From assembly GCA_028285305.1 (NCBI GenBank), contig JANQPV010000057.1:1-62254 (forward strand): 62,254 bases of DNA, written 5' to 3'. Position 1 is the stretch's first letter. The number at the start of each line of letters is the position of its first letter. The stretch comes from Alphaproteobacteria bacterium (GTDB taxonomy: Bacteria; Pseudomonadota; Alphaproteobacteria; SMXP01). Positions 28,160 to 55,066 of this stretch are shown piece by piece. The notes beneath the pieces were generated by a model that saw only the letters and a list, made by a program, of their open reading frames with translations, searched no databases and was not told the origin of the DNA. A program made the translations under genes and the position numbers.

Positions 28160-28162
28160 GTC

Positions 28163-31100: not shown

Positions 31101-31489
31101 CTCAGCGTGTGGCTTTCGGCTCAGGAATGACTCTCTTGACACCAGCGGTCGCAAAAGAAGAGTTGGTGCGTCGGGGTGATGCGCAGCCTACGGGAGGCGG
31201 ACTTGAAGGCGGGGCAAGTGTTCCGCCTGGTGATGAGGGAGGACCACGGGAATCTCAAACTCCCTTGCGATTCACCGGCGTGATTTCACTCGACCCAATC
31301 AAGGGTGCAATGAAGGTAAACCAGGTCTTTGGCGATGTCATTGCAGAGCTCGACAGGGTTCCGAACGCGGAGATTACGATTACCGTTGAGATTCAGGCGA
31401 AAGCCCCGGACGGATATCCTGATGACGTTATCGATGTTGTTACGGACAATGCCGGTGTTCTGGGTTTCGACGTGAAGAAGTTCGAATGA
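28163..31489 (+). CDS. DUF499 ATPase with N-terminal Swt1-like HEPN domain
   Basis: This 1108-residue protein has two clear parts. Residues 1-130 are helical and match the Swt1-type HEPN domain. They contain RNAFSH (Arg89 to His94), the Rx4H signature of RNA-cleaving HEPN proteins. From about 195 onwards is a DUF499 ATPase with Walker A TNFGGGKTHT (GGGKTH at 277-282), Walker B PSLILLDELVAFV and a sensor-like VVGSLPESD. The final 120 residues include an acidic linker and a short beta-rich tail. It is the third gene of the operon. Family members are annotated as antiphage-associated in DUF1156/DUF499 loci. HEPN ribonuclease activity would make it an abortive-infection-type effector; that is an inference. 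Confidence 0.9.
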   Translation: MPDVSNRRRIEVLLEAVEKALQPYVSAKMEDGFGKNWRDYGRVPKALTPKAEIDAYACLFIIVNNWHDTFKQHLKPSARDAASAALAGRNAFSHSVAELDDQTTLRALSGGAELLELVGEKAQAKTVRAQFDQLQQEMVLSKLRAQGKLPSEPNKGEGRTGVSNEGPKSVSKSGDQAEQASLLGGGDVEGLKPWRIVMPPREDVLTGRLNKDSFAANLAVADRGYRDQNSDSTYADPIAFFESTHPTHGLKLVLEQAGKRFVGGDAPAVIGLQTNFGGGKTHTLLSLLHMANLRDLAKSQVLSGVQETIGTGTLPEVRTVVFSGVDKGPDHPLEIVEGKSIRTLWGYVAWHLAGREGLELIRTSEEAGTSPGAEAIQKILELSGRPSLILLDELVAFVRQLNGERFEAHLSFIQALTEAASQVPNALVVGSLPESDVEAGQEQGKEALRRLEKVFGRTQSAWEPAQGTETYAVVRRRLFQDLDETGEKERKRTVDQFRKMYRDNKGDFPAYTGERDYLDKMTEAYPVHPMLFDVLAGEWGPLDKFQRTRGVLSLIAKAVFADFRYGTNDPILLPGSLKINDPSVKGALIEPLEGPAWSAIADNEIDGDTSVTVIMESVRKRYRDVAAARRAARSVFLATAPRDGTKGGITGSELRLACARPGEQLSIFVDALRELEDRSAHLYEAEGQYWYGPKPTLGKLAQQREADIDPDRVDQVIEDMLRQEVRPKGGWSRVHAVPDHAYEVADERSCALVILGPKFPYDDSGSSPAHAELRDGLNRRAGGQRRYRNALVYALADQKAIEETRRLVRRAIAWQEVATDELLDLTASQLKDAQTRSERSEKVAREQLRKAWVHLMVPGPDPHNSAEVTLEHTTRRQAGGKTISEHAWELVLNGGIVVDKLGPTTLGNKIKTLWPKDSDSLPVDMVRDWYFEYLHMERVRDEQVVADALSDAAADLNAPPFAIAESGGEDGYGQIFLSKTQRVAFGSGMTLLTPAVAKEELVRRGDAQPTGGGLEGGASVPPGDEGGPRESQTPLRFTGVISLDPIKGAMKVNQVFGDVIAELDRVPNAEITITVEIQAKAPDGYPDDVIDVVTDNAGVLGFDVKKFE

Positions 31490-37320: not shown

Positions 37321-38586
37321 ATGTTGCACGTTGACACATCGGAATTGGACGTTGTCTTAAACGCGACGCACCAGGCCGATGTCTTTGGATTTCATGATGA
37401 AGATCTCGACCATGAGATCCTCAAAGATCCGTTCAGTTATATTGAAGATTATCAGCACAAATTGGGGAACGTGTTTCTGACAGATAACGGGCGTCTTGGG
37501 AGCATAGACATTGCACGGATGTTCCTGTTGGACAGGGCAAAACCCATTTATGTCGCCTTGAGCTATGACTCCGTCCAACACGTCTTAAGGAATGCAGACG
37601 TGTTCCATCAAGGATATGATACATCGTATTTGCATCTTATGGGGCCCGTGCCCTCGGCCATAAATCCTCCCGAGCATACGGCGAAGCGCTCGTTGATCAA
37701 TCGGGCATTCGGCAAAATGGCTGTGGAGGCGATTACCGCGGAGTTGATTGAGCCGCTGGCGGTACATCTCTCAGATCGCATTAGGAAGCAAGGCCGTGCT
37801 GATCTGGTGACGAACTATACGGCTGTGCTGCCCTTTGTCGTCATCGCGAAACTGATGGATTTACCCATGCACTTGTTTGGGCAATTCGCAGAGCAGGTGC
37901 GAGATTTGATGGCAATGGGCTACAAGCCCGAGGCGGGCGTTCAGGCGGCCCAAGATATGGGCAAGCTCTTTTCAGACATGTATGATGCGCGTGTAGCAGA
38001 TCCTCAAGAAGACTTGATCAGTCATCTGACCCAAGCGGAAATAGAGGGTGAACGGCTGTCTAAAGATGATGTCGTCGCCTTCTGTCGATTGCTGACGCCA
38101 GCTGGGATGGAAACAACCAGTCGAACGCTGGCCAATCTTCTCGTCGCCTTGTTGACCGATCGTAGGCAGATGGATCTGCTGAGGAATGATATGACCCTCG
38201 TCCCCAACGCCGTCGAAGAAATCCTCAGGTGGGAAGGACCGGCGTTGATCATGCCAAAGATAACAACCTCTGCCACGCGTCTCGAAGACGTCGACATTCC
38301 AAAAGACGCCTATGTTTGCGTATCCCACGGCTTTGCCAACCGGGATGCGAAGCGCTGGGACAAGCCACACGACTTTGATATCACGCGCGAAAGAAAATCC
38401 AATCTCGCATTCGCGGTGGGGCCTCACACATGTGTGGGCAACCAGCTCGCAAAGAAAGAAATGGAAGTGGGACTGCAAGTCCTCTTAGAGACCATTCCGA
38501 ACCTAAAACTCGATCCATCAAAGGAAGCGCCTGAAATACTTGGTGTCATGATGAGATCGCCAGCGCACGTTTACATCACGCACTAA
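37321..38586 (+). CDS. Cytochrome P450
   Basis: This is a soluble bacterial class I P450 of 421 residues. The haem loop is FAVGPHTCVGNQLA with Cys371 as thiolate ligand. The I-helix oxygen-activation motif is AGMETTSR (Glu-Thr pair), and the K-helix ExxR is EEILRWEG. AINPPEHTAKRSLINRAF is the usual PPEHT block. It takes electrons from a ferredoxin, most simply the 3Fe-4S ferredoxin encoded at 39946. A second P450 follows 22 bp later. It probably hydroxylates the hydrophobic substrate taken up by the TonB receptor; similar proteins act on terpenoids and steroids. Control by site C is likely. Confidence 0.96.
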   Translation: MLHVDTSELDVVLNATHQADVFGFHDEDLDHEILKDPFSYIEDYQHKLGNVFLTDNGRLGSIDIARMFLLDRAKPIYVALSYDSVQHVLRNADVFHQGYDTSYLHLMGPVPSAINPPEHTAKRSLINRAFGKMAVEAITAELIEPLAVHLSDRIRKQGRADLVTNYTAVLPFVVIAKLMDLPMHLFGQFAEQVRDLMAMGYKPEAGVQAAQDMGKLFSDMYDARVADPQEDLISHLTQAEIEGERLSKDDVVAFCRLLTPAGMETTSRTLANLLVALLTDRRQMDLLRNDMTLVPNAVEEILRWEGPALIMPKITTSATRLEDVDIPKDAYVCVSHGFANRDAKRWDKPHDFDITRERKSNLAFAVGPHTCVGNQLAKKEMEVGLQVLLETIPNLKLDPSKEAPEILGVMMRSPAHVYITH

Positions 38587-38608
38587 CTATCAATACAGGG
38601 AAACAATT

Positions 38609-39919
38609 GTGATGACGCAGTCTCTAGGGTTCCAAGCCGTAGCGGCGAGGCAAGAAAGATCTGCTCCTCCAATCGAGGCTGCCGACGATCTTCACTCTTT
38701 GGAGTCCACCTCCGCCTGGTTCGATCGCTTCTATCAAACCGAAATGGGCGATGCCCTTGAACGCTTCAAACGTCTGCGCGCCCAAGGCCCAGTCGCGCAT
38801 GGCTGGGGAATGGATTTCGGCGAGTTCGTTTTCCCAGACCTGTGGAATTGGCACGATCGCCCGTCCGCCATGACGCTTACCTATGATGGAGCCTGCCGGG
38901 TTCTTCAAAATCCAGATATATTTTCTCATAGTCTGTATGCCGCGGAATTGGGAGACCAGAATCCACTGTTTCTGGATGGCGAACCGCATCAGCAATTTCG
39001 CCGTATGGTTCTGCAGGCTTTTAATCCAAAGGCCGTTCGCAATTGGCAAGACCTCGCCGAAAAAATTGCCCACGAGCTGATCGACCGGTTCGTTGAAGTG
39101 GGCAAAGCCGATCTCATATCGCAATACAGCAGGCTACTCCCCGGAATGGTGTTTAGCCGGTTTATGGGCGTGCCTGAAAAGGACGCCGGTATGCTTTCTG
39201 CTCTAGCGGTTCGTCAGATGCATGTTTTCGACGAGCAAGGCATGCAAGCCGTCCATGAGCTAGAACCCTATTTCGCCGAAATGATCAGAGAGCGAAGGAG
39301 TCTCTCGCTTGGCGAATTGGAAGAACGCGACGACTTGGTCAGTCTTTTGTGTCGTGTCGAATGTGACGGTCGGCGCTTCAATGACGTTGAAGTAAACACG
39401 GTTTCGCATGTTCTTATCATCGGCGGCGTGGACACCGTGTTTAAGGCGGCAGCTGCTCCGTTATACTTCCTGTTGACCGAGCCGGGCGTCCTGTCGGACA
39501 TCCGAAATAACAGAGACCTCCTTCCTGCGTTGGGAGATGAGGCCTTGCGGCTGGCCTCTCCAAACGTGTGCGGCGCCGCGCGGCGGGCGCTCGTCGACAC
39601 GGAAATAGAGGGCGTCAAAATTGAAGAAGGCGCCGCTGTGCTGGTGAATATTCCGATGGCCAACAGAGACTCTTCCCGGTGGAATCACCCGTACCAATTC
39701 GATCTGCATCGGCCGAACAGGTCGAGCTTGGCTTTCGGAACGGGGCCGCACGTCTGTCTTGGGATGCACTTGGGAAGGATTGTCGTTCAGGCCGGCTTGA
39801 ACGCCTTGTTGGATCGAACGACCGATCTTCGGTTAGACCCGAATGCGGAAGCGCCAAAATTAGTCGGTTTGGGAACATTGTATAGCCCTCAACTCAATGT
39901 AAGTTTTGAGCAGGCATAG
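38609..39919 (+). CDS. Cytochrome P450
   Basis: This is a second soluble P450 of 436 residues. The haem loop is FGTGPHVCLGMHLG (Cys383), the K-helix pair is DEALRLAS, and the I-helix reads IIGGVDTVFKA, keeping the acid-Thr pair as Asp-Thr. The conserved block DGEPHQQFRRMVLQAFN replaces PPEHT with GEPHQQ. GTG 38609 and ATG 38612 are both possible starts behind AGGGAAAC. It shares limited similarity with the preceding P450, so the two probably hydroxylate different positions or successive intermediates. The ferredoxin gene follows after 26 bp. No ferredoxin reductase gene is seen in this window. Confidence 0.96.
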   Translation: MMTQSLGFQAVAARQERSAPPIEAADDLHSLESTSAWFDRFYQTEMGDALERFKRLRAQGPVAHGWGMDFGEFVFPDLWNWHDRPSAMTLTYDGACRVLQNPDIFSHSLYAAELGDQNPLFLDGEPHQQFRRMVLQAFNPKAVRNWQDLAEKIAHELIDRFVEVGKADLISQYSRLLPGMVFSRFMGVPEKDAGMLSALAVRQMHVFDEQGMQAVHELEPYFAEMIRERRSLSLGELEERDDLVSLLCRVECDGRRFNDVEVNTVSHVLIIGGVDTVFKAAAAPLYFLLTEPGVLSDIRNNRDLLPALGDEALRLASPNVCGAARRALVDTEIEGVKIEEGAAVLVNIPMANRDSSRWNHPYQFDLHRPNRSSLAFGTGPHVCLGMHLGRIVVQAGLNALLDRTTDLRLDPNAEAPKLVGLGTLYSPQLNVSFEQA

Positions 39920-43379: not shown

Positions 43380-44390
43380 TCAGATTGATGATCGACCGCT
43401 CAAGTGGCTCTGTAAGAGAGGCACGAGCGTCCGGGCACGGAACGGCAAGCGGATTGTGGTGGCGAATTCCCTATATCGGGACAGGATTTCTTGTACGACA
43501 TGTTCGCCGCTGCCGCGAACGCAAAACAGATCTAAGACATCATCATTCATGAGGTCGCCCATTTTGCCCCACTCGTTGATGCGGCTCAGTTCATTGAGTT
43601 CTTTGTGCAGATCGCCTAAACCGTGAATCTCCAGAACGCCGCGGTAGGCGGGTGTCGATCCATAAAGCGCCATCCGGCGACGAAGATGCAAAGTCTGCTC
43701 TTGTATTTCCGCCGAACCATCTTCGATGATCACGTTGGGCGATATCACGCGATGAAATTCAGAACGTGCCCCTTCTGTTCCCGCATCCAAGGCCGGTGTG
43801 ATCACCTCTCTCAAGTACTTGTCGTTCATGAAAGGATGACAAATAAAGCCGTCTGCCGTGTTCGCGGCCATGCGGAGCATATCGGGTCCAACAGCTGCGA
43901 GAAGGATGGCGGGGCGTTGCTTGATTTTTGGCTCTCTTCGAAAGGCCGTCGCGTTGAACGTCAGTTGGTAGTGTTCACCGATAAAGTTAAGCGGCTTTTC
44001 GTCGTACCAATGATCCCAAATCGCACGGATCGATTGGACCAGCTCACGCATTTGGCCGACTGGTTTGGTCCAGGGCATGGAGAACCTGCGGGTGATATGG
44101 GGTTTTATCTGGGATCCCAGGCCCAAAGCAAACCGGCCGTTGGAGAGATCTTGCAGATCGACCGCCTGCTGAGCAATGGTCATCGGGCTCCGCGCAAGAC
44201 CGATGACGATGCCGGTTGAAACGCGTATGCGCGTTGTGTCGGAAAGCGCCAAGGCGGATTGAATAAACGGATCGTGCGCGGTTTCCGCAACCCACATTCC
44301 TGCAGCGCCAATCTTCTCAAGGTCTACCGCATTCTGACGAATGTCTTCTAACGAACCGTCATAAGTAACGTCTATATGCTTCAGTCGCAT
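43380..44390 (-). CDS. LLM class flavin-dependent oxidoreductase
   Basis: This luciferase-like oxidoreductase has about 336 residues from ATG 44390. The longer frame to 44543 encodes an Arg-rich, family-unlike extension inside the CoA-transferase gene and is rejected. GGAAGACGTGAG precedes ATG 44390, which starts 1 bp after the CoA-transferase stop. Signature stretches are VDLQDLSNGRFALGLGSQIKPHITRRFSMPWTKPVGQMREL and RPAILLAAVGPDMLRMAANTADGFICHPF. Members of this subgroup are often annotated as F420-dependent TIGR03617-like oxidoreductases. It closes a minus-strand operon with acyl-CoA ligase, SDR, crotonase, MFS and CoA-transferase. Confidence 0.9.
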   Translation of the reverse strand: MRLKHIDVTYDGSLEDIRQNAVDLEKIGAAGMWVAETAHDPFIQSALALSDTTRIRVSTGIVIGLARSPMTIAQQAVDLQDLSNGRFALGLGSQIKPHITRRFSMPWTKPVGQMRELVQSIRAIWDHWYDEKPLNFIGEHYQLTFNATAFRREPKIKQRPAILLAAVGPDMLRMAANTADGFICHPFMNDKYLREVITPALDAGTEGARSEFHRVISPNVIIEDGSAEIQEQTLHLRRRMALYGSTPAYRGVLEIHGLGDLHKELNELSRINEWGKMGDLMNDDVLDLFCVRGSGEHVVQEILSRYREFATTIRLPFRARTLVPLLQSHLSGRSSI

Positions 44391-44391
44391 C

Positions 44392-45582
44392 TCACGTCTT
44401 CCTTCGAATGCCGAATTCCGCGAGCACATCCTGGTTGTGTTCGCCGAGTTTCGGCGGCCGCTGATACAAGCTTGTGGGCGAATTGAGAAACTTGATCGGA
44501 TTGCCGGGCACACATCCGGAAGGATTGTCACCTGGAATTTCAAAAGGCTCGATCATCTGGCGGGCTGCGACGTGGGGATCTTCATATATGTCCGCCATCG
44601 AATTAGCCGGTCCGCACGGCACCTTGCCGCCGATGAGACGCATGATCTCTTCTTTTGAATGGGTCGACGTCCACTCTGATATAACGCGCTCGGTAAAATC
44701 CTTGTTCTTGATCCTTTTGAGATTGCTCGACGTGCGCTTGTCCTCTGTAAAATCAGGCCGTCCCATGGCATGACAGAGTTCCGCCCAGTGGCGCTCCACC
44801 GGTGCGGCGATCGCGATACGACCATCGTTGGTGGGAAAGAGACCGAAGGGAACGGCCGGTCGGGCGCCCGGAGCTCGTTGTTGGCCCGTGAGGCTGTAGG
44901 ATGCGACGGCCGATTTCAGCAGAGACAAGACGCCATCATACATCGCCACGTCGACGAATTCACCCTGACCAACTCTCCGTGCACGATGAACAGCGGAAAC
45001 GAGCCCGAGTGCCATCAGCGTCCCCGGATAAATGTCGGCGACCGCGATGGGAAAGAGATCGCCGGACGCCTCGACCAAACCGCCGAAGCTCTGTCCGGCG
45101 ACATCCAAACAAGGCCAATCCGCATAGGGACTTTCACCTGTCCTCGGATCACCAAATCCCCGGACGGCGCCATAGACGATCTGCGGGTTTCGGGCGGCGA
45201 TCGTTTCGTAGCTCAGGCCCAGATTGTCCATCACGCCCGCTCGCATATTCTCGACCACGGCGTCCGCTTTTTCGCATAACTGCAAGAAGAGTTCTTTGTC
45301 TGAAGGGTCTTTTAGGTCGAGTTTGACACTGCGTTTATTGCGGTTCACTCCCGCGAACGACATGCCATAGTCGGCGCCCGCCTCCTGCTGGCGGCTGGCG
45401 TGACCATAATCGGGAGGGAAAGGCGGTACCGCTCGAAACGGATCTCCCGTCGGCGGCTCGATCTTGATGATGTCCGCCCCAAGATCGCCGAGAAGCACTG
45501 TTCCGAAGGGGCCAGCATAGAACATCGAGCAATCGATGATGGTGAGGTCTTCTAGGGGGCCTGTTCGATTGGTCTGCGTCAT
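44392..45582 (-). CDS. CaiB/BaiF family CoA-transferase
   Basis: This is a family III CoA-transferase of 396 residues. Hallmarks are the N-terminal LEDLTIIDCSMFYAGPFGTVLLGDLGADIIKIEPPTGDPFR, NRNKRSVKLDLKDP, NLGLSYETIAARNPQIVYGAVRGFG, the region GEFVDVAMYDGVLSLL holding the catalytic Asp, and the C-terminal VPCGPANSMADIYEDPH. It moves CoA between acyl-CoA donors and a carboxylic acid of the pathway without ATP. It is followed 1 bp later by the LLM oxidoreductase and preceded by an MFS permease, in an operon that also has an acyl-CoA ligase, so two CoA-activation routes coexist. A second member of the family is at 52456. Confidence 0.94.
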   Translation of the reverse strand: MTQTNRTGPLEDLTIIDCSMFYAGPFGTVLLGDLGADIIKIEPPTGDPFRAVPPFPPDYGHASRQQEAGADYGMSFAGVNRNKRSVKLDLKDPSDKELFLQLCEKADAVVENMRAGVMDNLGLSYETIAARNPQIVYGAVRGFGDPRTGESPYADWPCLDVAGQSFGGLVEASGDLFPIAVADIYPGTLMALGLVSAVHRARRVGQGEFVDVAMYDGVLSLLKSAVASYSLTGQQRAPGARPAVPFGLFPTNDGRIAIAAPVERHWAELCHAMGRPDFTEDKRTSSNLKRIKNKDFTERVISEWTSTHSKEEIMRLIGGKVPCGPANSMADIYEDPHVAARQMIEPFEIPGDNPSGCVPGNPIKFLNSPTSLYQRPPKLGEHNQDVLAEFGIRRKT

Positions 45583-45631: not shown

Positions 45632-46933
45632 TTAGCTCGTCCCTAGGGACTGCCCTATGGTCTCAGAAGAGGCAGTAAAACCCCGCTCCGCGATGGGATC
45701 CATGGCTCGCCAATAGGCGATAGCGCCGAGTACGAAGGCGGAGAGGGAAATCATCAGAGCGACCGCCAGCGAGTCTTCCCCATACTGAGGTCTCGCCAAA
45801 TCACTGATGAAGCCGATCAGAACGGGTCCAAGACCGAGGCCGAGCATGTTGGCGAAAAACATGGCATAGGCGGCGGCTTGTGCCCGAAGTTCGGGTGCCA
45901 CCACTTCTTGAACAAGCGCCAAATGGGGTCCCCAATGAATCTTATATAGGAAAACGCCCAAGCCAAAGAATATGGAGGCGAGTACAACACTATTGGCAAG
46001 CATACCGAGGAGTAAGAGAGGCGTGGCGGCAAGCAGAGATATCATGGGAATGCGGGCGCGCCAGCGTAGATCCTTCGTTCCCAACTTATCTCCAATATAG
46101 CCTCCAACGATGAGTCCGGGGATACCGCCGCCGGAAATGATCAAGCCGATGATCAGGCCAACATCCGCTTGGCCTAGCTCGAACTTCCGCATAAAGAGGG
46201 CAGGGAGCCACCCGAAGAGCGAATACCCGACAAAGATCGCGAGGATGTGACCCGCAACAATCCGTGTTAGGACGCGGTTTTTGCCAAGTTCGCTCGCCGC
46301 TGCCAAAAAGCCGAGAGGCTCAGATTGGGCGCTTGAAGGTTTTGCGTCGAACATGCCTCTTTTGGGTTCCTTGACCGTCAGCCACATGAGGAGCGCAAGG
46401 AAGATGCCCGGAATCCCGAGTACAAGGAAGGCAGCGCGCCAGCCATAGTGCTGGGCGACATAACCACCGATGACAAGACCGAGAAAACCACCGATGGACG
46501 TCCCCATGGAATAGATTGATAGGGCCATCCCGCGCTGCGATTGGCCAAAATAGTCAGTGATCACAGAATGGGAGGGTGGGATCCCGCCGGCTTCCCCGAT
46601 GCCGACGCCGACACGAGCCAGAAATAATTGAACAAAGTTGCCTGCAGCGCCGCAAAGCGCGGTCATCGCGCTCCATACGGCGACCGCGATGGAAACGATC
46701 TTCACCCGATTGTGGCGATCGGCCAAGCGCGCGATAGGAATGCCAAGCGTTGCGTAAAAGAGTGCGAAGGCAAGCCCGGAAAGAATGCCCAGTTGAGCAT
46801 CGGAAAGACTAAACTCTGCACGCAAATCTTCGACCAAGATCGCAACGATCTGGCGGTCCATAATGCTGAACGTGTACGTTAGGGTAAGGATCGCCAGAAC
46901 GTAGTAGCGGTAGTACCCCTCGGCCTTCGGCAT
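45632..46933 (-). CDS. MFS transporter, spinster-like
   Basis: This 433-residue permease has about 12 predicted membrane spans in two halves. It begins YYRYYVLAILTLTYTFSIMDRQIVAILVEDLRAEFSLSDAQLGILSGLAFALFYATLGIPIARLADRHNRVKI, where LADRHNR is the MFS motif A between spans 2 and 3. The wording matches the spinster-like branch common in alphaproteobacterial catabolic clusters. It lies between the crotonase (upstream) and CoA-transferase (downstream) genes on the minus strand and probably carries the acid substrate or an intermediate across the inner membrane. The substrate is unknown. Confidence 0.92.
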   Translation of the reverse strand: MPKAEGYYRYYVLAILTLTYTFSIMDRQIVAILVEDLRAEFSLSDAQLGILSGLAFALFYATLGIPIARLADRHNRVKIVSIAVAVWSAMTALCGAAGNFVQLFLARVGVGIGEAGGIPPSHSVITDYFGQSQRGMALSIYSMGTSIGGFLGLVIGGYVAQHYGWRAAFLVLGIPGIFLALLMWLTVKEPKRGMFDAKPSSAQSEPLGFLAAASELGKNRVLTRIVAGHILAIFVGYSLFGWLPALFMRKFELGQADVGLIIGLIISGGGIPGLIVGGYIGDKLGTKDLRWRARIPMISLLAATPLLLLGMLANSVVLASIFFGLGVFLYKIHWGPHLALVQEVVAPELRAQAAAYAMFFANMLGLGLGPVLIGFISDLARPQYGEDSLAVALMISLSAFVLGAIAYWRAMDPIAERGFTASSETIGQSLGTS

Positions 46934-46981: not shown

Positions 46982-47758
46982 TTAGCGCCCCTTCCACACG
47001 GGCTTGCGTTTCTCGGCAAAGGCCTTCAAGCCCTCGCGCCTGTCTTCCGCATCAAGCGCTTTTTGGGCGATGGGCATCTGTTTTTCCCATCCCTCGTCGT
47101 CGTCCCAGTTGGCGGATTGCCAAATGATCTCTTTACTTGCTGCCAACGCCGTCGGGCCGTTGACCAGCAGCGAGTTCGCCAGCTCAAGGGCGGCGTCAAG
47201 CGCCTGTCCAGGCTCTGCGATCCGATTGACGAAGCCATAGCGTTCCATGAACTCGGCGTCTTTGAAGGCGCCGCTCAGCGCAAACTCCATCGCGATGTGG
47301 TAAGGAATACGTTGGGGCAGGCGAAACAGCCCGCCGCCGATCGCGACCACGTTGTGGCGGACTTCGGGCAAACCGAATTTGGCATCACGGGCGGCGACAA
47401 TCAGATCGCACGCTAGGCACATTTCCATACCGCCGCCCACCGCATAGCCTTCGACCGCAGCGATCACCGGCTTGCGCGGAGGCCGCTTCATAATGCCGAA
47501 GCCACCGCGATGGGGGCGCTCGCGCCGTTCGCCGCGGGCGGCCGCCTTCAGATCGGCGCCGGCCGAGAAATTGCCCCCGGCGCCGGTAATAATGCCCACG
47601 AACAATTCGTCTTTGCCATCGAGGACATCTAAGGCGGCGGACATCGCATGGGAGGATTCGTCATCGAATGCATTTCTCGCTTCGGGCCGATTGATCGTTA
47701 CAATGAGAATAGGACCGCGCTCTTCGGTGAGAATGCGCTCGCTTGTTTCTGTGTTCAT
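46982..47758 (-). CDS. Enoyl-CoA hydratase
   Basis: This is a crotonase-family hydratase of 258 residues. It opens LIVTINRPEARNAFDDES, has the oxyanion-hole segment GIITGAGGNFSAGADLKA, and both catalytic Glu are in place: GGGMEMCLACDLIVAARDAKFGLPEVRH, with Glu in GMEM and in LPEVRH. The ending GLKAFAEKRKPVWKGR is typical. It probably hydrates a trans-2-enoyl-CoA in beta-oxidation of the pathway acid. It lies 9 bp downstream of the SDR gene and 48 bp upstream of the MFS gene on the same strand. Confidence 0.94.
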   Translation of the reverse strand: MNTETSERILTEERGPILIVTINRPEARNAFDDESSHAMSAALDVLDGKDELFVGIITGAGGNFSAGADLKAAARGERRERPHRGGFGIMKRPPRKPVIAAVEGYAVGGGMEMCLACDLIVAARDAKFGLPEVRHNVVAIGGGLFRLPQRIPYHIAMEFALSGAFKDAEFMERYGFVNRIAEPGQALDAALELANSLLVNGPTALAASKEIIWQSANWDDDEGWEKQMPIAQKALDAEDRREGLKAFAEKRKPVWKGR

Positions 47759-47767
47759 GGTGTTACC

Positions 47768-48559
47768 TCAAAGTGCCATCGTGAAGCCGCCGTTCACTGG
47801 ATAGGTCTGACCGGTAATCCAGCTGTTCGACTCGGACGCGAGGAACAATACCATGTTCGCCACGTCTGTCGGCTGGCCAGGACGCCGAATGATGTATTGC
47901 TGCATGACGCGTTTCATTTGCTCAGGATTTCCCGTCATCCGCTCTTCTGTTGCGGGTGTGACGGTTGCCGCAATCGCCACACAATTGGCGGTGATCTGAT
48001 ATCGGCCCAGTGTTCTTGCTACGGATCGCATAAATCCCGCGGCACCCGCTTTTGCACCGGCATACATGGCCATGCCCGCATCGCCCCAACGGCCCGCATC
48101 GGAAATAATGGTAATGATCCGGCCGCCATTCGCTTCGATCATTCCTGGAATAACCGCACTGGTGCAATTCAGCACGCCAAAGAAGTTGACGCCGATATAG
48201 CTTTGCCAAACGTCGGGACCGGTTTCCCAAAAGGGATTTCGCAGATCCGGGTCGGGATTCGCGCCGGCGTTGCCAGCATTGTTCACCAATACGCCCACCG
48301 GCCCTAGACTCTCGGCTGCTTTGGCGTGCGCCTCTTTCACCGCTTCATAGTTGGAAACGTCTGCCTGCACCGCAAACGCCTTCCCACCGGCTTCACGAAT
48401 TTCCTCCGCTACGCCTTCGGCGCGGTCGAGAACATAGTCGTTTACGGCAACGCCGCCCGCATTGTGCGAAGCCAAATGCAGCGCGATTTGTCGGCCCACG
48501 CCTTGTCCGGCACCGGTCACGAACGCAACGCGGCCGCCCAGGTCTAGGATATCGCTCAT
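47768..48559 (-). CDS. SDR family oxidoreductase
   Basis: This is a short-chain dehydrogenase with GRVAFVTGAGQGVGRQIALHL as cofactor loop, VLVNNAGNAG, IITIISDAGRWG with the catalytic Ser, and YAGAKAG as YxxxK. The end reads SNSWITGQTYPVNGGFTMAL. Its context points to a 3-hydroxyacyl-CoA dehydrogenase step between the hydratase and a thiolase or aldolase. The start overlaps the stop of the acyl-CoA ligase gene by 4 bp. Confidence 0.93.
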   Translation of the reverse strand: MSDILDLGGRVAFVTGAGQGVGRQIALHLASHNAGGVAVNDYVLDRAEGVAEEIREAGGKAFAVQADVSNYEAVKEAHAKAAESLGPVGVLVNNAGNAGANPDPDLRNPFWETGPDVWQSYIGVNFFGVLNCTSAVIPGMIEANGGRIITIISDAGRWGDAGMAMYAGAKAGAAGFMRSVARTLGRYQITANCVAIAATVTPATEERMTGNPEQMKRVMQQYIIRRPGQPTDVANMVLFLASESNSWITGQTYPVNGGFTMAL

Positions 48560-50121
48560 ACTTTTCTGTCCTTATCTTTCCAGTAGGGTTCACGAAGTTG
48601 CCGCTTTAGGATTTTGCCCATCGTGTTTCTGGGGAGTTCGTCTACAATTTCCACACTGCGTGGCTGCTTGTAGGAGGCGAGGTGCTGAGCGGCATGGGAG
48701 AGGATGGCCTCGGGTTTCACTTGATGACCGGGTTTGAGTTCCACGAACGCTTTGACTTCCTCGCCGAACTCCGGATTGGGCACGCCGATCACCGCTGCGT
48801 CTTGGACCCCCCCGTGAGTGGTGATCGCGGCTTCAATTTCCGCGGGGTACAGATTAACACCGCCTGAGATGATCATGTCTTTGGCGCGATCGGTGATGTA
48901 CAGATAGCCATCGTCATCGATCCGGCCGACGTCGCCAATGCGAAAGAAGCCGTCTGCATCGAGTGTGTCTTGGTCCAAAGGCCCTTGGTTCAAGTAACCG
49001 TTAATCGTGACCGGTGTTTTTACCCAGATCTCGCCAACCGTTCCGGGCTCTACCGGCTTTCCATTCTCGTCCCGGATGCTGAGTTCAACATTCTTGTGCG
49101 GGCGCCCGCAGGAGCCCGGCTTGAGCTCCTGGTCTTCCGGAGGCATGAAGGTGATCATTCCGGTTTCAGTTGAGCCGTAGCCTTCCGACAGCAATCCTTG
49201 CCCGAAATAGTCATTGATCCACGTTTTCAGCTCCGGTGTAACCGGCGCCGCTCCAACACCCAATTTCTGCAGCGAAGACACGTCGTATTGGGCGATCACA
49301 TCCTCCGGCAAACCGGCGATCCGTTTGTACATTGTCGGAACGCCTGTCCAGTCAGTCACTTTGTGGTGCTGGATCAGTTTGAGGACGGTTTCCGCATCGA
49401 AGCGGCGTAAAAGGATGATCCGATTGCCCAGACGCATTGCTCCCGACAGTGCGGATGGGCCCGCGGCGTGATGCATCGGCAAGGTTATGAGTGTGACTTC
49501 CCCCTTGCGCGATGCACGGCTTGATGCCACATCAAGGAGATATTCCGCAGCCTTCGGATCTGAGCGCGCGTGTTCCTGTGAACGCGAGACAACGCCTTTT
49601 GGTAAACCGGTCGTGCCCGAAGTGTATATTATGAGCGGGGCGTCGCCGTTGGAATAGCGCGCCGGCGCCGATTCATCTAAGAGGTCTTTGAAGGTGACGT
49701 AGCCTTCCGCAGGCGTATCTATCGTCACCGCAAGACGCAGAGGCAAATTCCCCAACGCCTCCTTCAGAGGTCTCGGGTCTGGATCATCACAAATGAGAAC
49801 TGTCGCGCCGGAGTTCTGAAGGACGTATTCCACTTCTGATGGAGTGAGGCGCCAATTAGTGCCGAGCAGGGAACATCCCAGTTTCGCGAGAGCGGAACTG
49901 ATGATGGCCCATTCGAGCCGGATTTGCGTTCGCACAACAACAATATCATCGGCTGACAAACCGTACTTTGAAAGCCCCTCCGCGAGACGGTCGGCCTCGT
50001 TGTTCCACTGGTCATACGTGAGTGAACGATCGCCTTCAACGATCGCTACCTGGTCGGGCTTCTCTCGCGCCCAAAACTCAATCGTGTTCGGAGCAATCCG
50101 TTCTGAGTCGCTGCTGCTCAT
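48556..50121 (-). CDS. Class I adenylate-forming acyl-CoA ligase
   Basis: This ANL-superfamily ligase activates a carboxylic acid with ATP and CoA. The P-loop is IIYTSGTTGLPKGVVS, the A5 motif is GYGSTETGM, A7 is FRIGDVGRIDDDGYLYITDRAKDMIISGG, and the A10 Lys lies in RNTMGKILKRQL. The length is about 521. ATG 50121, preceded by GGATAGGG, is preferred over TTG 50136. It is the first gene of the minus-strand operon, behind a strong sigma70-like promoter at 50176-50204. The acid may be the product of the P450/oxidase steps, but chain length cannot be read. Confidence 0.94.
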   Translation of the reverse strand: MSSSDSERIAPNTIEFWAREKPDQVAIVEGDRSLTYDQWNNEADRLAEGLSKYGLSADDIVVVRTQIRLEWAIISSALAKLGCSLLGTNWRLTPSEVEYVLQNSGATVLICDDPDPRPLKEALGNLPLRLAVTIDTPAEGYVTFKDLLDESAPARYSNGDAPLIIYTSGTTGLPKGVVSRSQEHARSDPKAAEYLLDVASSRASRKGEVTLITLPMHHAAGPSALSGAMRLGNRIILLRRFDAETVLKLIQHHKVTDWTGVPTMYKRIAGLPEDVIAQYDVSSLQKLGVGAAPVTPELKTWINDYFGQGLLSEGYGSTETGMITFMPPEDQELKPGSCGRPHKNVELSIRDENGKPVEPGTVGEIWVKTPVTINGYLNQGPLDQDTLDADGFFRIGDVGRIDDDGYLYITDRAKDMIISGGVNLYPAEIEAAITTHGGVQDAAVIGVPNPEFGEEVKAFVELKPGHQVKPEAILSHAAQHLASYKQPRSVEIVDELPRNTMGKILKRQLREPYWKDKDRKV

Positions 50122-50167
50122 CCCTATCCATCCCAAGTCTTTGTGCGGCGCAACATATATTTACTGG

Positions 50168-50283: not shown

Positions 50284-50661
50284 ATGTCTGAGAAACGGGA
50301 ATTGTGGGTCGAGCAGAGTGGTGTGATATTCCTGCGCGGTGTGAAATGCGATCGGTGCGGCAGCGTGTTGTTCCCGCCTCAAGCCTATGGCTGTGAGGCG
50401 TGCGGTGCTGACGAGACACATCTGCGTGAGTTTCTGTTCCCATCGTCCGGCACCTTGAACAGTTTCACGACGGTACACGTTCACCCCAAATTGGAGACAC
50501 CATACAAAGTCGCTGAGGTGAAAACCGAAGCAAGACAACTGGTACGCGGTCGACTTGAACACGAGCACCCAAGTGTTGGTGAGGCAGTCATGGGCGCTGT
50601 TGAAGTGATTGACGGCACGCCGCAGTTCATATTCGTCGTCCCATCTGAAGTAGAGGCGTGA
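50284..50661 (+). CDS. DUF35/OB-fold zinc-ribbon protein, thiolase partner
   Basis: This 125-residue protein has a rubredoxin-like zinc ribbon with Cys22, Cys25, Cys37 and Cys40 (KCDRCGSVLFPPQAYGCEACGA), followed by an OB-fold (SGTLNSFTTVHVHP, GAVEVIDGTPQFIFVV). Such DUF35 proteins bind acyl-CoA and pair with thiolases or with thiolase-like aldolases. ATG 50284 follows CGGGAGGAAG and is preferred over the upstream frame start at 50239. It is the first gene of a plus-strand operon with the thiolase-like protein 3 bp downstream. The tight coupling supports a stable complex of the two products. Confidence 0.92.
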   Translation: MSEKRELWVEQSGVIFLRGVKCDRCGSVLFPPQAYGCEACGADETHLREFLFPSSGTLNSFTTVHVHPKLETPYKVAEVKTEARQLVRGRLEHEHPSVGEAVMGAVEVIDGTPQFIFVVPSEVEA

Positions 50662-50664
50662 GCC

Positions 50665-51819
50665 ATGGCCAAAAAGAACATCCTTAAGGATCGCTCCGTA
50701 TACGCAATAGGCATCGGTCTTCACCCCTATCAGCGGGCATCCGATGTGACCTACGTGACGCTAGGGCTAACGGCGGTGCGGGCGGCTCTGTCAGATGCGC
50801 AAATCAAGTGGACGGACGTAGAGACGGCCTTCGTCGGAAACGCGAGAATCGGCATGGCCGCAGGCTCAACCATGTTGCGCTATTTGGGACCTTCGGACGT
50901 TTCGGTCGCGCAGGTCGAAAACGCGTCGGCGTCAGGATCGACTGCGTTCCGCCAAGCTGTTCATGATGTTGCCTCGGGCGTTGCCGAAGTGAGCATCGCC
51001 ATCGGTGTGGACAAGCCGGTGGAAGGGGCAGGACGGGGAGGACCCATCAATGCAAAGGTGCGCTCGCTCGATGAGGGGCTCGTTGTTCCATTCAGCCATT
51101 TTGCCATGCTGGCGGAGCGATATATGGCCGATACGGGCGCGACGATCGAACAGATTGCAAAAGTAGCTGTGAAGAATCACGCAAATGGCGCGCGCAATCC
51201 ATTTGCCCAAAGGCAGAAAGCACGAACCCTGGAAGAAGTCCTGGCTCCGCCTCAAATCTCCGGCGCGCTTACCCGGCTGCAATGCACCCCCGTCGGCGAA
51301 GGAGCTGCCGCGACGATTGTTGCCTCTGAAGATGCCATAGAGCGGCTCGGCATTGATTGGCAGCGAGCTATACGAGTGACCGCATCCGCGTCCCGGTTGC
51401 AAGAATTTACACCCGATGAAAATGCCGACGCAGCACTCACGCGAAAAACCACACTTGAAGCGCTCGATGCAGCTGCGGTGGATCCCAGAGACCTTGATGT
51501 TATCGAGCTCCATGACGCGTTTTCTATCGAAGAGCTACTCTACGCAGAAGCCATAGGATTATGCGGAGAGGGCGAAGCAGCCGCCTGCGTGGAACGCGGC
51601 GATTTTGACATCGGCGGGCGCCATGCGATTAGCCCTTCCGGCGGACTTTTGGCCATGGGTCATCCGATCGGGCCAACCGGCGTGGGCCAAGTCTGCGAAA
51701 TCGTTCGCCAGTTGAGAAATGAAGCCGGCGATCGTCAGCATCCAGATGCCAAGATAGGACTAGCCCACATGGTGGGTGTCGGCGCCGTATGCGTCGTGCA
51801 TGTGCTTGAGCGTACGTAG
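50665..51819 (+). CDS. Thiolase-superfamily protein lacking the nucleophilic Cys; putative aldolase
   Basis: The 384-residue protein has the thiolase fold of the SCP-x/lipid-transfer branch: YAIGIGLHPYQR, VENASASGSTAFRQAVHDVASG, LQCTPVGEGAAA, ELHDAFSIEELLYAEAIGLC, AISPSGGLLAMGHPIGPTG and the closing GVGAVCVVHVLER. The canonical NACASGS nucleophile loop reads NASASGS, so the active-site Cys is Ser88 (codon TCG, 50926-50928). The HDAF and GHPIGPTG motifs are intact. Cys-less thiolase-like proteins paired with DUF35 partners, such as Ltp2 with the DUF35 domain of ChsH2, act as retro-aldolases on tertiary hydroxyacyl-CoA in steroid side-chain loss. A similar carbon-carbon cleavage is proposed here. 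Confidence 0.88.
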   Translation: MAKKNILKDRSVYAIGIGLHPYQRASDVTYVTLGLTAVRAALSDAQIKWTDVETAFVGNARIGMAAGSTMLRYLGPSDVSVAQVENASASGSTAFRQAVHDVASGVAEVSIAIGVDKPVEGAGRGGPINAKVRSLDEGLVVPFSHFAMLAERYMADTGATIEQIAKVAVKNHANGARNPFAQRQKARTLEEVLAPPQISGALTRLQCTPVGEGAAATIVASEDAIERLGIDWQRAIRVTASASRLQEFTPDENADAALTRKTTLEALDAAAVDPRDLDVIELHDAFSIEELLYAEAIGLCGEGEAAACVERGDFDIGGRHAISPSGGLLAMGHPIGPTGVGQVCEIVRQLRNEAGDRQHPDAKIGLAHMVGVGAVCVVHVLERT

Positions 51820-51830
51820 GGACAAAACGA

Positions 51831-52469
51831 ATGGATGCCAAGGTCGCGACTCGCCGTACTCAACATGAACGAAGAAAGGAATCGCGCCGAAAAGTGCTTG
51901 ATGCTGCGATGCGGCTCTTTGCGTCACGCGGATATTCAGGGACAACCATGGTGGAAATAGGCCGCGAAGCCGGTGTGAGCCATGGGTTGGTGACGTATCA
52001 TTTCGGCAGTAAGAAGCAATGTATAAAGGCTGTTCTCGAAGACATTCGCGCAAAGGTCGCCGACAGCTATGAAGGACTGTTTTCCAGCCAACGTGGTCTG
52101 ACCAGCCTCGACAGTGTCTGTGAGCGATACCTTCAAGGCCCTTCGGAAGCGCGCCCCGGCGCTAGAGCGATCTACGTCGCCATAATGGAGTCGATCAGTT
52201 CGGCACCCGATTTGAAAGACCTAACGAAAAAGAACGATGAGGCTTTCCGTGGTGCCATCGTGCGGGCACTGACGGAAGCAATCGAAGATGGCGAAATCAG
52301 TGCGAGTGTGGACGTAAAAACGCAAGCCGTACTGATCCTCGGTCTCCTACGCGGCGTTGTTCTGCAGCGCATGGTCAATTCCAACCTCATTGGTCTAAAC
52401 ACCATCATTCCCGCGGCGCTGGCGATGGTGAGGTCAAGTCTGAAGGAAGAGAACCGTGACCGGGAATGA
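51831..52469 (+). CDS. TetR/AcrR family transcriptional regulator
   Basis: This 212-residue repressor has an N-terminal helix-turn-helix: RRKVLDAAMRLFASRGYSGTTMVEIGREAGVSHGLVTYHFGSKKQCIKAVLEDI. The C-terminal helical ligand domain (about 60-205) is typical. It starts 11 bp after the thiolase-like gene and overlaps the CoA-transferase gene by 14 bp, so it is made together with the catabolic enzymes. It probably represses its own operon and the divergent ligase operon through the 50168-50204 region, with a CoA-ester or acid as inducer. Confidence 0.94.
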   Translation: MDAKVATRRTQHERRKESRRKVLDAAMRLFASRGYSGTTMVEIGREAGVSHGLVTYHFGSKKQCIKAVLEDIRAKVADSYEGLFSSQRGLTSLDSVCERYLQGPSEARPGARAIYVAIMESISSAPDLKDLTKKNDEAFRGAIVRALTEAIEDGEISASVDVKTQAVLILGLLRGVVLQRMVNSNLIGLNTIIPAALAMVRSSLKEENRDRE

Positions 52470-53637
52470 CGAAGGGCCGCAAGCTCTCAAGGGTATCCGG
52501 GTTATCGACTTGACCACGGTCCTTATGGGACCGCTTGCCTGCCGCATGCTGGCCGATCACGGCGCTGACGTTATTCAAGTGGTTCCGCCATCTGCTCCGG
52601 AAGCGGTACTCGGCGATGCGGGGGGCATTGGTGGCATCGCGCTCGATATCCATCGCAACAAGCGCAGCGTCAAGCTCGACTTGAAATCGGACGTGGGCAA
52701 ACGGGCCATGTGGGACCTAATCGAATCTGCGGATGTTTTCGTGACAAATCTCAGGGCAGCCGCCCTTTCGCGTCTCGGATTTTCCGCGGAACAAGTGCGC
52801 GCGCACCATCCGCACCTGATCTATTGCTTGGCCAACGGGTACGGCGAAGGCGGTCCCTATGCTGATCGCGCGGCCTATGATGACGCCATCCAAGCGTTGT
52901 CAGGTTTCGCTGGCCTCTCAAGCGCGATCGGTGGTGCACCCGCATACGCGCCTTCTGTCATTGTCGACAAAGTGTGCGCTCTTTTCGTCGTTCAGGCGGT
53001 GATGGCGTCATTGCTTCATCGTCAGGCGGCCAACCAAGGCCAGACCATCAGCGTGCCCATGTTTGAGACAATGGCGGCCTTCAATCTCATAGAACACTTT
53101 CGAGGCGCAGCTCTTGTGCCGCCACGAGGAAAGCTGGGATATTCGCGTCTCCTAAATCCTGAACGTCGACCTTACCGGAGCGCTGACGGCTGGATTGCGC
53201 TGCTGCCATACTCAGCCGCCAACTGGCAGGATTTTTTCGAGATTATCGGGTCATCCGAACTCAACGATGACCCCAGATTCGCCACTCACAATTCCCGGAT
53301 GGAAAATGCCGAAGCGCTCTATCGCATCGTGGCGGACGCAGCGCCGACCCGAACTACGCAAGAGTGGATGACGATCTGCGCCAAGCACTCGATCGCTTGC
53401 AACCCAGTACTCGGTCTCGAGGAAGTGATTGAAGATCCGCACCTGGAGGCGGTGAGACTTTTTTCGACAGTGACCCATCCGGTAGAAGGTCCATATAAAG
53501 CCGTCCGCGATCCTGTTTCTTACGACACCCTCACCACTGACATCAAACGGCATGCGCCCATCCCCGGTGAACATACCGTCGAGGTCATGCGCGAGCTTAC
53601 TTGGAGCGATGAACAGATAGAGACTCTGTCAGCATAG
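52456..53637 (+). CDS. CaiB/BaiF family CoA-transferase
   Basis: This is a family III CoA-transferase of 393 residues starting at GTG 52456. It has LKGIRVIDLTTVLMGPLACRMLADHGADVIQVVPP, IHRNKRSVKLDLKSDVGK, GFSAEQVRAHHPHLIYCLANGYGEGGPYADRAAYDDAIQALSG (with the Asp expected at the catalytic position) and the C-terminal ICAKHSIACNPVLGLEEVIEDPHLE. It overlaps the TetR gene by 14 bp. The remnant at 14391 derives from a relative of this gene. It probably transfers CoA to the acid substrate of the plus-strand operon. Confidence 0.94.
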   Translation: MTGNDEGPQALKGIRVIDLTTVLMGPLACRMLADHGADVIQVVPPSAPEAVLGDAGGIGGIALDIHRNKRSVKLDLKSDVGKRAMWDLIESADVFVTNLRAAALSRLGFSAEQVRAHHPHLIYCLANGYGEGGPYADRAAYDDAIQALSGFAGLSSAIGGAPAYAPSVIVDKVCALFVVQAVMASLLHRQAANQGQTISVPMFETMAAFNLIEHFRGAALVPPRGKLGYSRLLNPERRPYRSADGWIALLPYSAANWQDFFEIIGSSELNDDPRFATHNSRMENAEALYRIVADAAPTRTTQEWMTICAKHSIACNPVLGLEEVIEDPHLEAVRLFSTVTHPVEGPYKAVRDPVSYDTLTTDIKRHAPIPGEHTVEVMRELTWSDEQIETLSA

Positions 53638-53770
53638 ATTGTATTCCCATGCAACCGCCAACTATGGCTTTAGCATCATCCGTATACGAAACGGAGGGCT
53701 AACAGTTCTTTTCTTGCGAGAACGGGTGTGAACGCAACAGGGGGTGCAATGGGAGGATAAAAAGATCATT

Positions 53771-55066
53771 ATGCCAAATATATTCTATGGCTGGATTATA
53801 GTCGCAGCGGCTGTTTTAATCGGTTTCTTAACGACCGGGCTTTCTGGGTATGCGAACGGCATCCTGCTCCCCCAATTGGCGGACGCGCTGGCGGAAGGGA
53901 GCCGCGGGCAGATTTCAATTGGCTTTTCGATCTCGACCTTTCTGGCAGCGCTCATTTCCCCTTGGGTTGGTCGGCACGCCGACAATCATTCGCCGCGCCG
54001 CGTTCTTCTTCTCGGCGTTGGGCTGATTGCTCTGTCCTATGTGGGGATCGCGAGCGCCCAGTCGATTTGGCAATTCTATTTGGCAAAAGGGGTCTTGTTT
54101 GGGGCCGGCATCGCGATGGCAGGTCCGTTGGTGCGTAATTTGATCGTTGCACACTGGTTCGAAAGAATGCGGGGGCGGGCGCTCGGCTTTTCCGTGCTCG
54201 GTGCTTCGATTGCGGGGGTGGTGCTACCGCTCATTCTAAACGAAATGGTCAATGAGCTTGGATGGCGGACCACTGTCTATCTCTTCGGGTTCGCTGTTGC
54301 CGTGATGTTGTCGCCGACGGTTTATTTCATCCTGAAGGACCGGCCGGAGGAGATTGGTGAAGTGAGGGACGGGAACGCGCCGGAAAGCTCCGTCACCTCA
54401 ACCTCGCCAAGAAACGACGAAGACGAGCGAAAATGGTCCTGGGCGGACTTGTTGAAAAGTCGAGCCTTCTGGGCAACAGGGCTCGTGTTCGGTCCCATGT
54501 TTTGTGTTTACATTGTCATTATGGTTCACCTTTTCGGTCACGTCGTGGCGTCAGGCCTCAAGACCGAACAAGCAGCGTTGGTGCTCTCCGTCGTTGCCCT
54601 CTTCTCTCTTACCGGCAAGCCTATCATCGGCTTCATGGCCGATTTTGTCGGTGCACGAATAACGCTGTGGACATCATTGATATTGCAGGGCACGGCACTG
54701 TTTGTCTTCACGATATCGAGCGAGCTGTGGCATTTCACCTTTTCCGCGGCGATGTATGGCCTCGGCTATGCGGCACTGTCGCCGATGCGAACCTATGTAT
54801 TGGCAGCTAACATCGGTACAAAGTCATTGGGCACCGCAGTCGGTTTGTTGAAATGGTTGGAATTGCCCTTTGGCATTGCAGCCTCACCAATTGCCGGTTT
54901 CGTTTACGATGCGACCGGCAGCTATGACAGCGCGTTTCTCGTCTTCGCAGGCTTCATCGTGCTTGGTTGCATCGGTCCCTTCTTTATCAAAGATGATCGC
55001 GCTGCCAGACTGTGGGAGCGGCTCACATCGCTCACATCGCGCCTTAAGAGAGGTCTACAAGGGTAA
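53771..55066 (+). CDS. MFS transporter, OFA/monocarboxylate-like
   Basis: This permease of about 431 residues has 12 predicted membrane spans. It begins FYGWIIVAAAVLIGFLTTGLSGYANGILLPQLADAL, carries WVGRHADNHSPRRVLLLG as motif A, and repeats the pattern in the second half (KPIIGFMADFVGARITLWTSLIL). The GYANGILLPQL start and the RxxP spacing resemble oxalate:formate-antiporter/monocarboxylate-type carriers. ATG 53771 follows GGGAGGAT; the frame also opens at GTG 53744, nine codons earlier. It lies 133 bp after the CoA-transferase gene and probably moves a carboxylate of the pathway. Confidence 0.9.
   Translation: MPNIFYGWIIVAAAVLIGFLTTGLSGYANGILLPQLADALAEGSRGQISIGFSISTFLAALISPWVGRHADNHSPRRVLLLGVGLIALSYVGIASAQSIWQFYLAKGVLFGAGIAMAGPLVRNLIVAHWFERMRGRALGFSVLGASIAGVVLPLILNEMVNELGWRTTVYLFGFAVAVMLSPTVYFILKDRPEEIGEVRDGNAPESSVTSTSPRNDEDERKWSWADLLKSRAFWATGLVFGPMFCVYIVIMVHLFGHVVASGLKTEQAALVLSVVALFSLTGKPIIGFMADFVGARITLWTSLILQGTALFVFTISSELWHFTFSAAMYGLGYAALSPMRTYVLAANIGTKSLGTAVGLLKWLELPFGIAASPIAGFVYDATGSYDSAFLVFAGFIVLGCIGPFFIKDDRAARLWERLTSLTSRLKRGLQG

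Follow-up and report, generated by a model that had tools for sequence, protein, structure and literature searches.

Serine in place of the nucleophilic cysteine in a clade of DUF35-partnered thiolase-like proteins

A DUF35 gene and a thiolase-fold gene with serine at the nucleophile position

The DNA analysed here is a stretch of 62,254 nucleotides from an alphaproteobacterium (the window). Its forward strand carries a pair of genes, the first of which (50284..50661) encodes a DUF35 protein of 125 amino acids with a zinc ribbon and an OB fold and without a fused hydratase domain. The stop codon of this gene (TGA, 50659-50661) is separated by 3 bp from the ATG (50665) of the second, which spans 50665..51819 on the same strand and encodes a thiolase-fold protein of 384 amino acids with Pfam matches to Thiolase_N, Thiolase_C and Thiolase_C_1. 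Thiolases are recognised by their nucleophilic Cys. In the translation of 50665-51819, its position is occupied by Ser88 (codon TCG, 50926..50928, forward strand), which stands within VENASASGSTA; in HMMER alignments, BbsB (QSACSAG) and SCP2-thiolase (NNNCSTG) both have their Cys at this place.

Two further motifs are encoded on the same strand, HDAF (His283 to Phe286; 51511..51522) and GHPIGPTG (residues 332-339; 51658..51681), with His283 opposite the catalytic Tyr294 of the aldolase Ltp2 and His333 opposite Ltp2 Tyr344. Between them lies Glu289 (51529..51531, forward strand), for which we can only infer a role. The correspondences given for Ser88, His283, Glu289 and His333 are derived from alignments. 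A first-pass annotation had reported the replacement of the Cys by Ser88, the retention of both motifs and a four-Cys DUF35 gene 3 bp upstream, and the translation, the alignments and the ends of the reading frames agree with it on these points, with one amendment. Pro337 (51673-51675, forward strand), in the second motif, is specific to the group of Ser-bearing proteins described below (the Ser clade) and differs from the GATG, GASG or GSTG of 56/56 Cys-type rows. Meanwhile, Cys thiolases of solved structure (BbsB, Pyrococcus 7yvy) can likewise have HDAF without the HDCF Cys, and the motif is thus no mark of lost thiolase function.

The DUF35 protein scored above the cut-off for the zinc ribbon family PF12172 (zf-ChsH2; 30.6 against 23.2 bits) and below that for the OB-fold family PF01796 (OB_ChsH2_C; 22.7 against 27.1 bits). 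Its ribbon has the form CDRC-x11-CEAC, the four Cys of which are conserved without exception among 30 orthologues. The AF2 model of this protein (pLDDT 93.8) had BbsA (7pxp_A) as its top Foldseek match (TMq 0.74, E 5.5e-7). In 53/61 loci of the clade, the DUF35 gene lies directly upstream on the same strand, an adjacency that suggests that the two proteins may form a complex.

Among solved structures, the best sequence matches of the 384-residue protein were 6hsj (3e-63) and 7pxp (2.1e-60), with Ltp2 (6ok1) at 1.6e-17. Its AF2 model (pLDDT 92.8, pTM 0.94) was closest in fold to SCP2-thiolase (6hrv, Z 56.8) and BbsB (7pxp, Z 56.4), with Z scores of 45.1 for Ltp2 and 44.4 for Sal. SCP2-thiolase type 1 (6hsj, 6hrv) is thus the best match by both sequence and fold and shares the GHP His and HD-x-F, but it has Cys88 and the HDCF Cys where the window protein has Ser88 and HDAF. 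The resemblance to BbsAB, the benzoylsuccinyl-CoA thiolase of Geobacter (7pxp), extends to separate DUF35 and thiolase subunits, HDAF without the HDCF Cys, GHP, the best fold match for the DUF35 protein and the second-best for the thiolase, as well as a context of CoA-transferase, enoyl-CoA hydratase and SDR genes that is seen in Cys-sister loci. BbsB differs in its nucleophilic Cys and GASG, and the window proteins fall far below the BbsAB equivalog cut-offs NF053628 and NF053627 (227.7 against 750 bits for BbsB, 27.1 against 250 bits for BbsA). In summary, the protein has the fold of thiolases together with the His of HDxF and of GHP (20/20 Ser rows) and has lost the nucleophilic Cys; with its DUF35 partner, it is not a plain thiolase, as had been proposed at first pass.

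Gene neighbourhood

The pair stands head to head with an operon on the reverse strand. This operon begins with an AMP-binding acyl-CoA synthetase (48556..50136; PF00501, 5.5e-77), followed by an SDR dehydrogenase that keeps Ser-Tyr-Lys (47768..48559; PF13561, 4.7e-49), an enoyl-CoA hydratase that keeps both catalytic Glu positions (46982..47758; PF00378, 3.9e-47), an MFS transporter (45632..46933; PF07690, 3.8e-54), a CoA-transferase of family III (CaiB1, 44392..45582; PF02515, 2.1e-100) and a luciferase-like flavin/F420 oxidoreductase (43380..44543; PF00296, 1.3e-58; TIGR03617, 337.3 bits against a cut-off of 278.15). Downstream of the pair, on the forward strand, are a TetR-family regulator (51831..52469; PF00440, 8e-17), a second family III CoA-transferase (CaiB2, 52456..53637; PF02515, 1.9e-98) and another MFS transporter (53744..55066; PF07690, 5.2e-41). 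The core order, hydratase-SDR-synthetase on one side and DUF35-Ser protein-TetR on the other, is repeated at three other loci (L033, L034 and L035), where the synthetase likewise adjoins the pair and the regulator holds the same position. Two tandem cytochrome P450 genes (37321-39919) lie not far from this module in the window, and a link to its substrate is possible.

Similar genes accompany the clade elsewhere. Within 6 kb of 55 Ser loci we counted an SDR at 38, an enoyl-CoA hydratase at 31, an acyl-CoA synthetase at 21, a CoA-transferase at 16 and a second thiolase at 2; hydratase and SDR are not found together at every locus. The same distance around 10 Cys-sister loci held a hydratase at 8, an SDR at 6 and a CoA-transferase at 6, while none of 8 Ltp2 loci had a hydratase and 7 had an ACAD gene (hydratase near Ser against Ltp2 loci, Fisher p 0.005). 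The two catalytic Glu positions are kept in 34/36 and 29/36 of the hydratases near clade members, and Ser-Tyr-Lys in 46/48 of the SDRs. Collectively, the context of the Ser loci resembles beta-oxidation of the BbsAB type more than the steroid side-chain operons of Ltp2. A neighbouring SDR is not decisive for a beta-keto substrate, since an operon is known in which a reductase (ChsE6) accompanies a Sal-type aldolase (Atf1) and its DUF35 protein (ChsH4) (PMC10398937). At four acidimicrobial loci (L046, L050, L053 and L069), the pair is directly preceded by an ALDH gene, an arrangement compatible with an aldehyde product.

Extent and conservation of the Ser clade

A scan of 84,980 species genomes with six search patterns, one of which was HDAFSIEE, returned 59 loci, most of them encoding proteins with 48-86% identity to the window protein. 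They span Alpha-, Beta- and Gammaproteobacteria, Actinomycetes, Acidimicrobiia, Dehalococcoidia, Acidobacteria, Myxococcota and other groups, and all close loci have N-A-S-A-S-G-S. Within the same class as the window, 385 genomes searched with a profile yielded four core-clade members, one of them that of the window's own genome, together with a second Ser subclade; plasmids contributed five more members. In the combined alignment, 69/69 Ser rows combine Ser88 with Pro337, while 56/56 Cys-type rows have Cys88 and either Ala337 or Ser337. Because two of the 69 rows are duplicates, of the window or of L033, with a different locus id, the number of distinct Ser homologues is about 67. The Ser88 codons are TCN in 66/68 cases and AGC in 2/68. 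Glu289 was present in 69/69 Ser rows and 0/56 Cys-type rows, a conservation that is partly ascertained because HDAFSIEE was among the search patterns; it is also present in about 10 members found without that pattern, by profile or tblastn.

Across phyla, and at overall identities of 36-86%, next to no variation is seen at Ser88, His283, Asp284, His333, Pro337 and Glu289. The presence of Ser88 in the clade is well above chance, and this conservation rules out a sequencing error or a quirk of a single genome. The first-pass annotation had also pointed out that another Cys might align with the nucleophile. We searched the combined alignment for a conserved Cys specific to the clade and found none: the best-conserved one, Cys207, is common to Cys thiolases as well (65/69 Ser rows, 50/56 Cys-type rows), and we rejected another Cys as the nucleophile on this ground. 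The window protein belongs to a widespread and apparently undescribed branch of thiolases. Searches of the literature in open-licence papers found no description of a serine-bearing thiolase clade, and annotation pipelines label its members "thiolase family protein".

The second Ser subclade (L130:1498-2664, L131 and L132) has HVENASATGSSA, HDAFPI and GHPGGPTG, and a DUF35 gene was not found in its short flanks. Other substitutions were seen among related proteins. On two haloarchaeal plasmids, thiolase-like proteins outside the Ser clade have lost the Cys separately, one with Ser88, Leu289 and Ala337 (Halorussus, L185:3031-4155) and one with Gly88 and Glu289 (Halococcus, L124:3992-5161); each adjoins an OB-fold gene. 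Two proteins of Dehalococcoidia/Chloroflexi (L088:2811-3974 and L089:1849-2946) have Thr at the nucleophile position (ESGTASAS and ECGTASAT) and GNP instead of GHP, with HDAFSI retained. Another protein (L140, reverse-strand ORF 1495-2784) has its Cys one residue early (NIENCSAAAS) and retains HDCF, which may reflect a shifted nucleophile or an effect of the alignment.

Comparison with DUF35-partnered retro-aldolases

Known enzymes with a thiolase fold, a DUF35 partner and no nucleophilic Cys include the steroid side-chain aldolase Ltp2-ChsH2 (6ok1), the bile-acid aldolase Sal-Shy (9myr) and IpfDE, which is encoded on pIBU218 and belongs to ibuprofen degradation; Sal-Shy and, as described, IpfDE perform retro-aldol C-C cleavage of CoA esters. 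The catalytic residues assigned to Ltp2 and Sal are the Tyr of YDHF in the former and of YDCY in the latter, together with a second acid, which is Tyr344 in Ltp2; in CtSal, Gln352 was assigned as the second catalytic residue, and the Y302F variant retained only trace activity (PMC12329534). The first-pass annotation had likened the window pair to Ltp2, from which kinship, Tyr residues of the aldolase type and a steroid or isoprenoid substrate would be expected. Alignment with an Ltp2 reference (L108, 2.9e-184 to 6ok1) places Tyr294 and Tyr344 opposite His283 and His333 of the window protein, and IpfD, with YDAF, has Tyr at both of these positions. In the tree set, the states at positions 88/283/333 were Gly/Tyr/Tyr in 9/9 aldolases (Ltp2, Sal-like and IpfD) and Ser/His/His in 20/20 Ser rows. 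The 25 thiolase comparison rows had His/His in 25/25 and Cys88 in 23/25. Hence, the Ser clade shares with the aldolases the absence of the Cys (Ser here, Gly there), and neither the Tyr of the YDxF/Y motif nor, by alignment, the second Tyr at the position of the GHP His.

Phylogeny gave a similar picture. In a maximum likelihood tree from which the diagnostic columns were removed, and which included the second Ser subclade and Cys sisters and left out two divergent Cys proteins (L003 and L008), the aldolases grouped together in a clade of their own (100/100), and the Ser clade was monophyletic (99/98) and nested inside Cys thiolases. An AU test disfavoured joining Ser clade and aldolases in one group (p 0.037, delta lnL 16.8). 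A first tree with another row set gave the same split from the aldolases, and in it the two divergent proteins (QDTE, GEP) fell among the Ser proteins, which leaves the precise rooting of the Ser clade insecure. We also searched the window's own genome for a member of the Ltp2 family and found none above the curated cut-off (best 126.9 against 469 bits), and a steroid or isoprenoid substrate finds no support in any of these results. Residues, tree and a context with hydratase rather than ACAD genes therefore set the window protein apart from Ltp2, and the Tyr residues and grouping of IpfD exclude membership of that type as well. A protein of the Ltp2 type (1.2e-141 to 6ok1) was found next to the ipf cluster of pIBU218 (L177:938-4556), along with an OB-fold protein, an enoyl-CoA hydratase and CaiB.

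Proposed function and alternatives

The best explanation of these data is that the Ser clade derives from Cys thiolases near the SCP2-type and BbsAB-type enzymes. We tentatively favour, at somewhat less than an even chance, a C-C lyase bound to DUF35 whose Ser88 would be activated by His333 and take over from the Cys in cleaving a beta-ketoacyl-CoA. The pair would then most likely be the cleavage step of a CoA-dependent module for acid degradation. An acid would be activated by the ligase or a CoA-transferase, and the enoyl-CoA hydratase and SDR would produce the beta-ketoacyl-CoA to be split by the Ser enzyme. His333 of GHP would activate Ser88 for attack on the beta-carbonyl, the oxyanion site at His283 of HDAF would hold the thioester enolate, and the acyl group on Ser would be transferred either to CoA or to water. 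Possible roles of Glu289 are to assist a His or to donate the proton given by the HDCF Cys in SCP2-thiolases. A covalent intermediate, a beta-keto group in the substrate, the nature of the acceptor, such a role of Glu289 and the complex with the DUF35 protein are what we infer from residues and context.

A precedent is DpsC, a protein of thiolase fold that self-acylates on a Ser nucleophile within the triad Ser118-His297-Asp302 (PMC12664062). The likeness to priming ketosynthases of this type lies in the natural Cys-to-Ser swap and in an acidic residue shortly after the catalytic His; by this comparison Glu289, six residues past His283, is a candidate acid, its correspondence to the acid of DpsC being presumptive. 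DpsC differs in being KASIII-like and in priming ACP in polyketide synthesis, whereas the Ser clade sits in CoA catabolism. Retro-Claisen cleavage with a Ser nucleophile is favoured because the His pair is kept, Ser is strict and DpsC offers this precedent. Counted against it are the two haloarchaeal proteins outside the clade, which combine Ser88 with neither Glu289 nor Pro337 (L185) and Gly88 with Glu289 (L124), as well as the retro-aldol chemistry of the Cys-less, DUF35-partnered Ltp2 and Sal (PMC12329534) and, as described, of IpfD.

That chemistry leads to the main alternative, which we consider somewhat less likely, a non-covalent retro-aldolase in which Ser88 and His333, with His283 or Glu289, would take the proton from the beta-hydroxyl of a beta-hydroxyacyl-CoA supplied by the hydratase. 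The products would be acetyl- or propionyl-CoA plus either a ketone or an aldehyde, and the enzyme would work like Ltp2, Sal or IpfD with independently evolved residues. The known aldolases are marked by the loss of Cys alongside a DUF35 partner, a hydratase gene often adjoins, ALDH is in the operon at four loci, and a relative with Gly88 and Glu289 (L124) would need no nucleophile. Nevertheless, the catalytic Tyr pair is replaced by His/His, and loss of one such Tyr left CtSal with only trace activity (PMC12329534); the tree and AU test separate the Ser clade from the aldolases, SDR genes are common, and Ser88 is strictly kept with no drift to Gly. It is unlikely that the enzyme is instead a Cys-independent decarboxylase or Claisen-type acyltransferase in which the His pair would merely stabilise an enolate, for instance decarboxylating an alpha-carboxyacyl-CoA or acylating a non-CoA acceptor like PhlABC. 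The neighbourhood is one of catabolic beta-oxidation, and CtSal itself lacks malonyl-CoA decarboxylation, although it does occur, very slowly, with the thiolase-like TbSLP, which also lacks the nucleophilic Cys (PMC12329534), and the acyltransferases PhlC and MucABC have the same fold and a DUF35 partner. A catalytically dead scaffold or regulatory subunit, surviving through a complex with DUF35 and another enzyme, would account for the loss of the key catalytic residue; the near-invariance of the six residues listed above and the lack of another thiolase in the cluster at 53/55 loci make this very improbable.

If Ser88 is the nucleophile, the clade might constitute a natural family of "serine thiolases", a possibility that we hold with some reserve, in which Ser-His(-Glu) would replace Cys and cleave beta-ketoacyl-CoA on a DUF35 scaffold, possibly by hydrolysis instead of thiolysis. 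Present in several phyla and on several plasmids, the clade would represent either a thiolase operating with serine or a fourth set of C-C lyases with a DUF35 partner, beside Ltp2, Sal and IpfD. For a badly annotated family, the three positions offer a sorting rule: Cys/His/His for thiolases, Gly/Tyr/Tyr for aldolases and Ser/His/His for the Ser clade.

Elsewhere in the window (21735-31489), three genes form an anti-phage defence module of the HMA type according to PADLOC models, with HmaA helicase at 1416, HmaB adenine methylase at 1032 and HmaC ATPase at 680 bits. The third protein of this module has a Swt1-like HEPN domain (Pfam) at its start.
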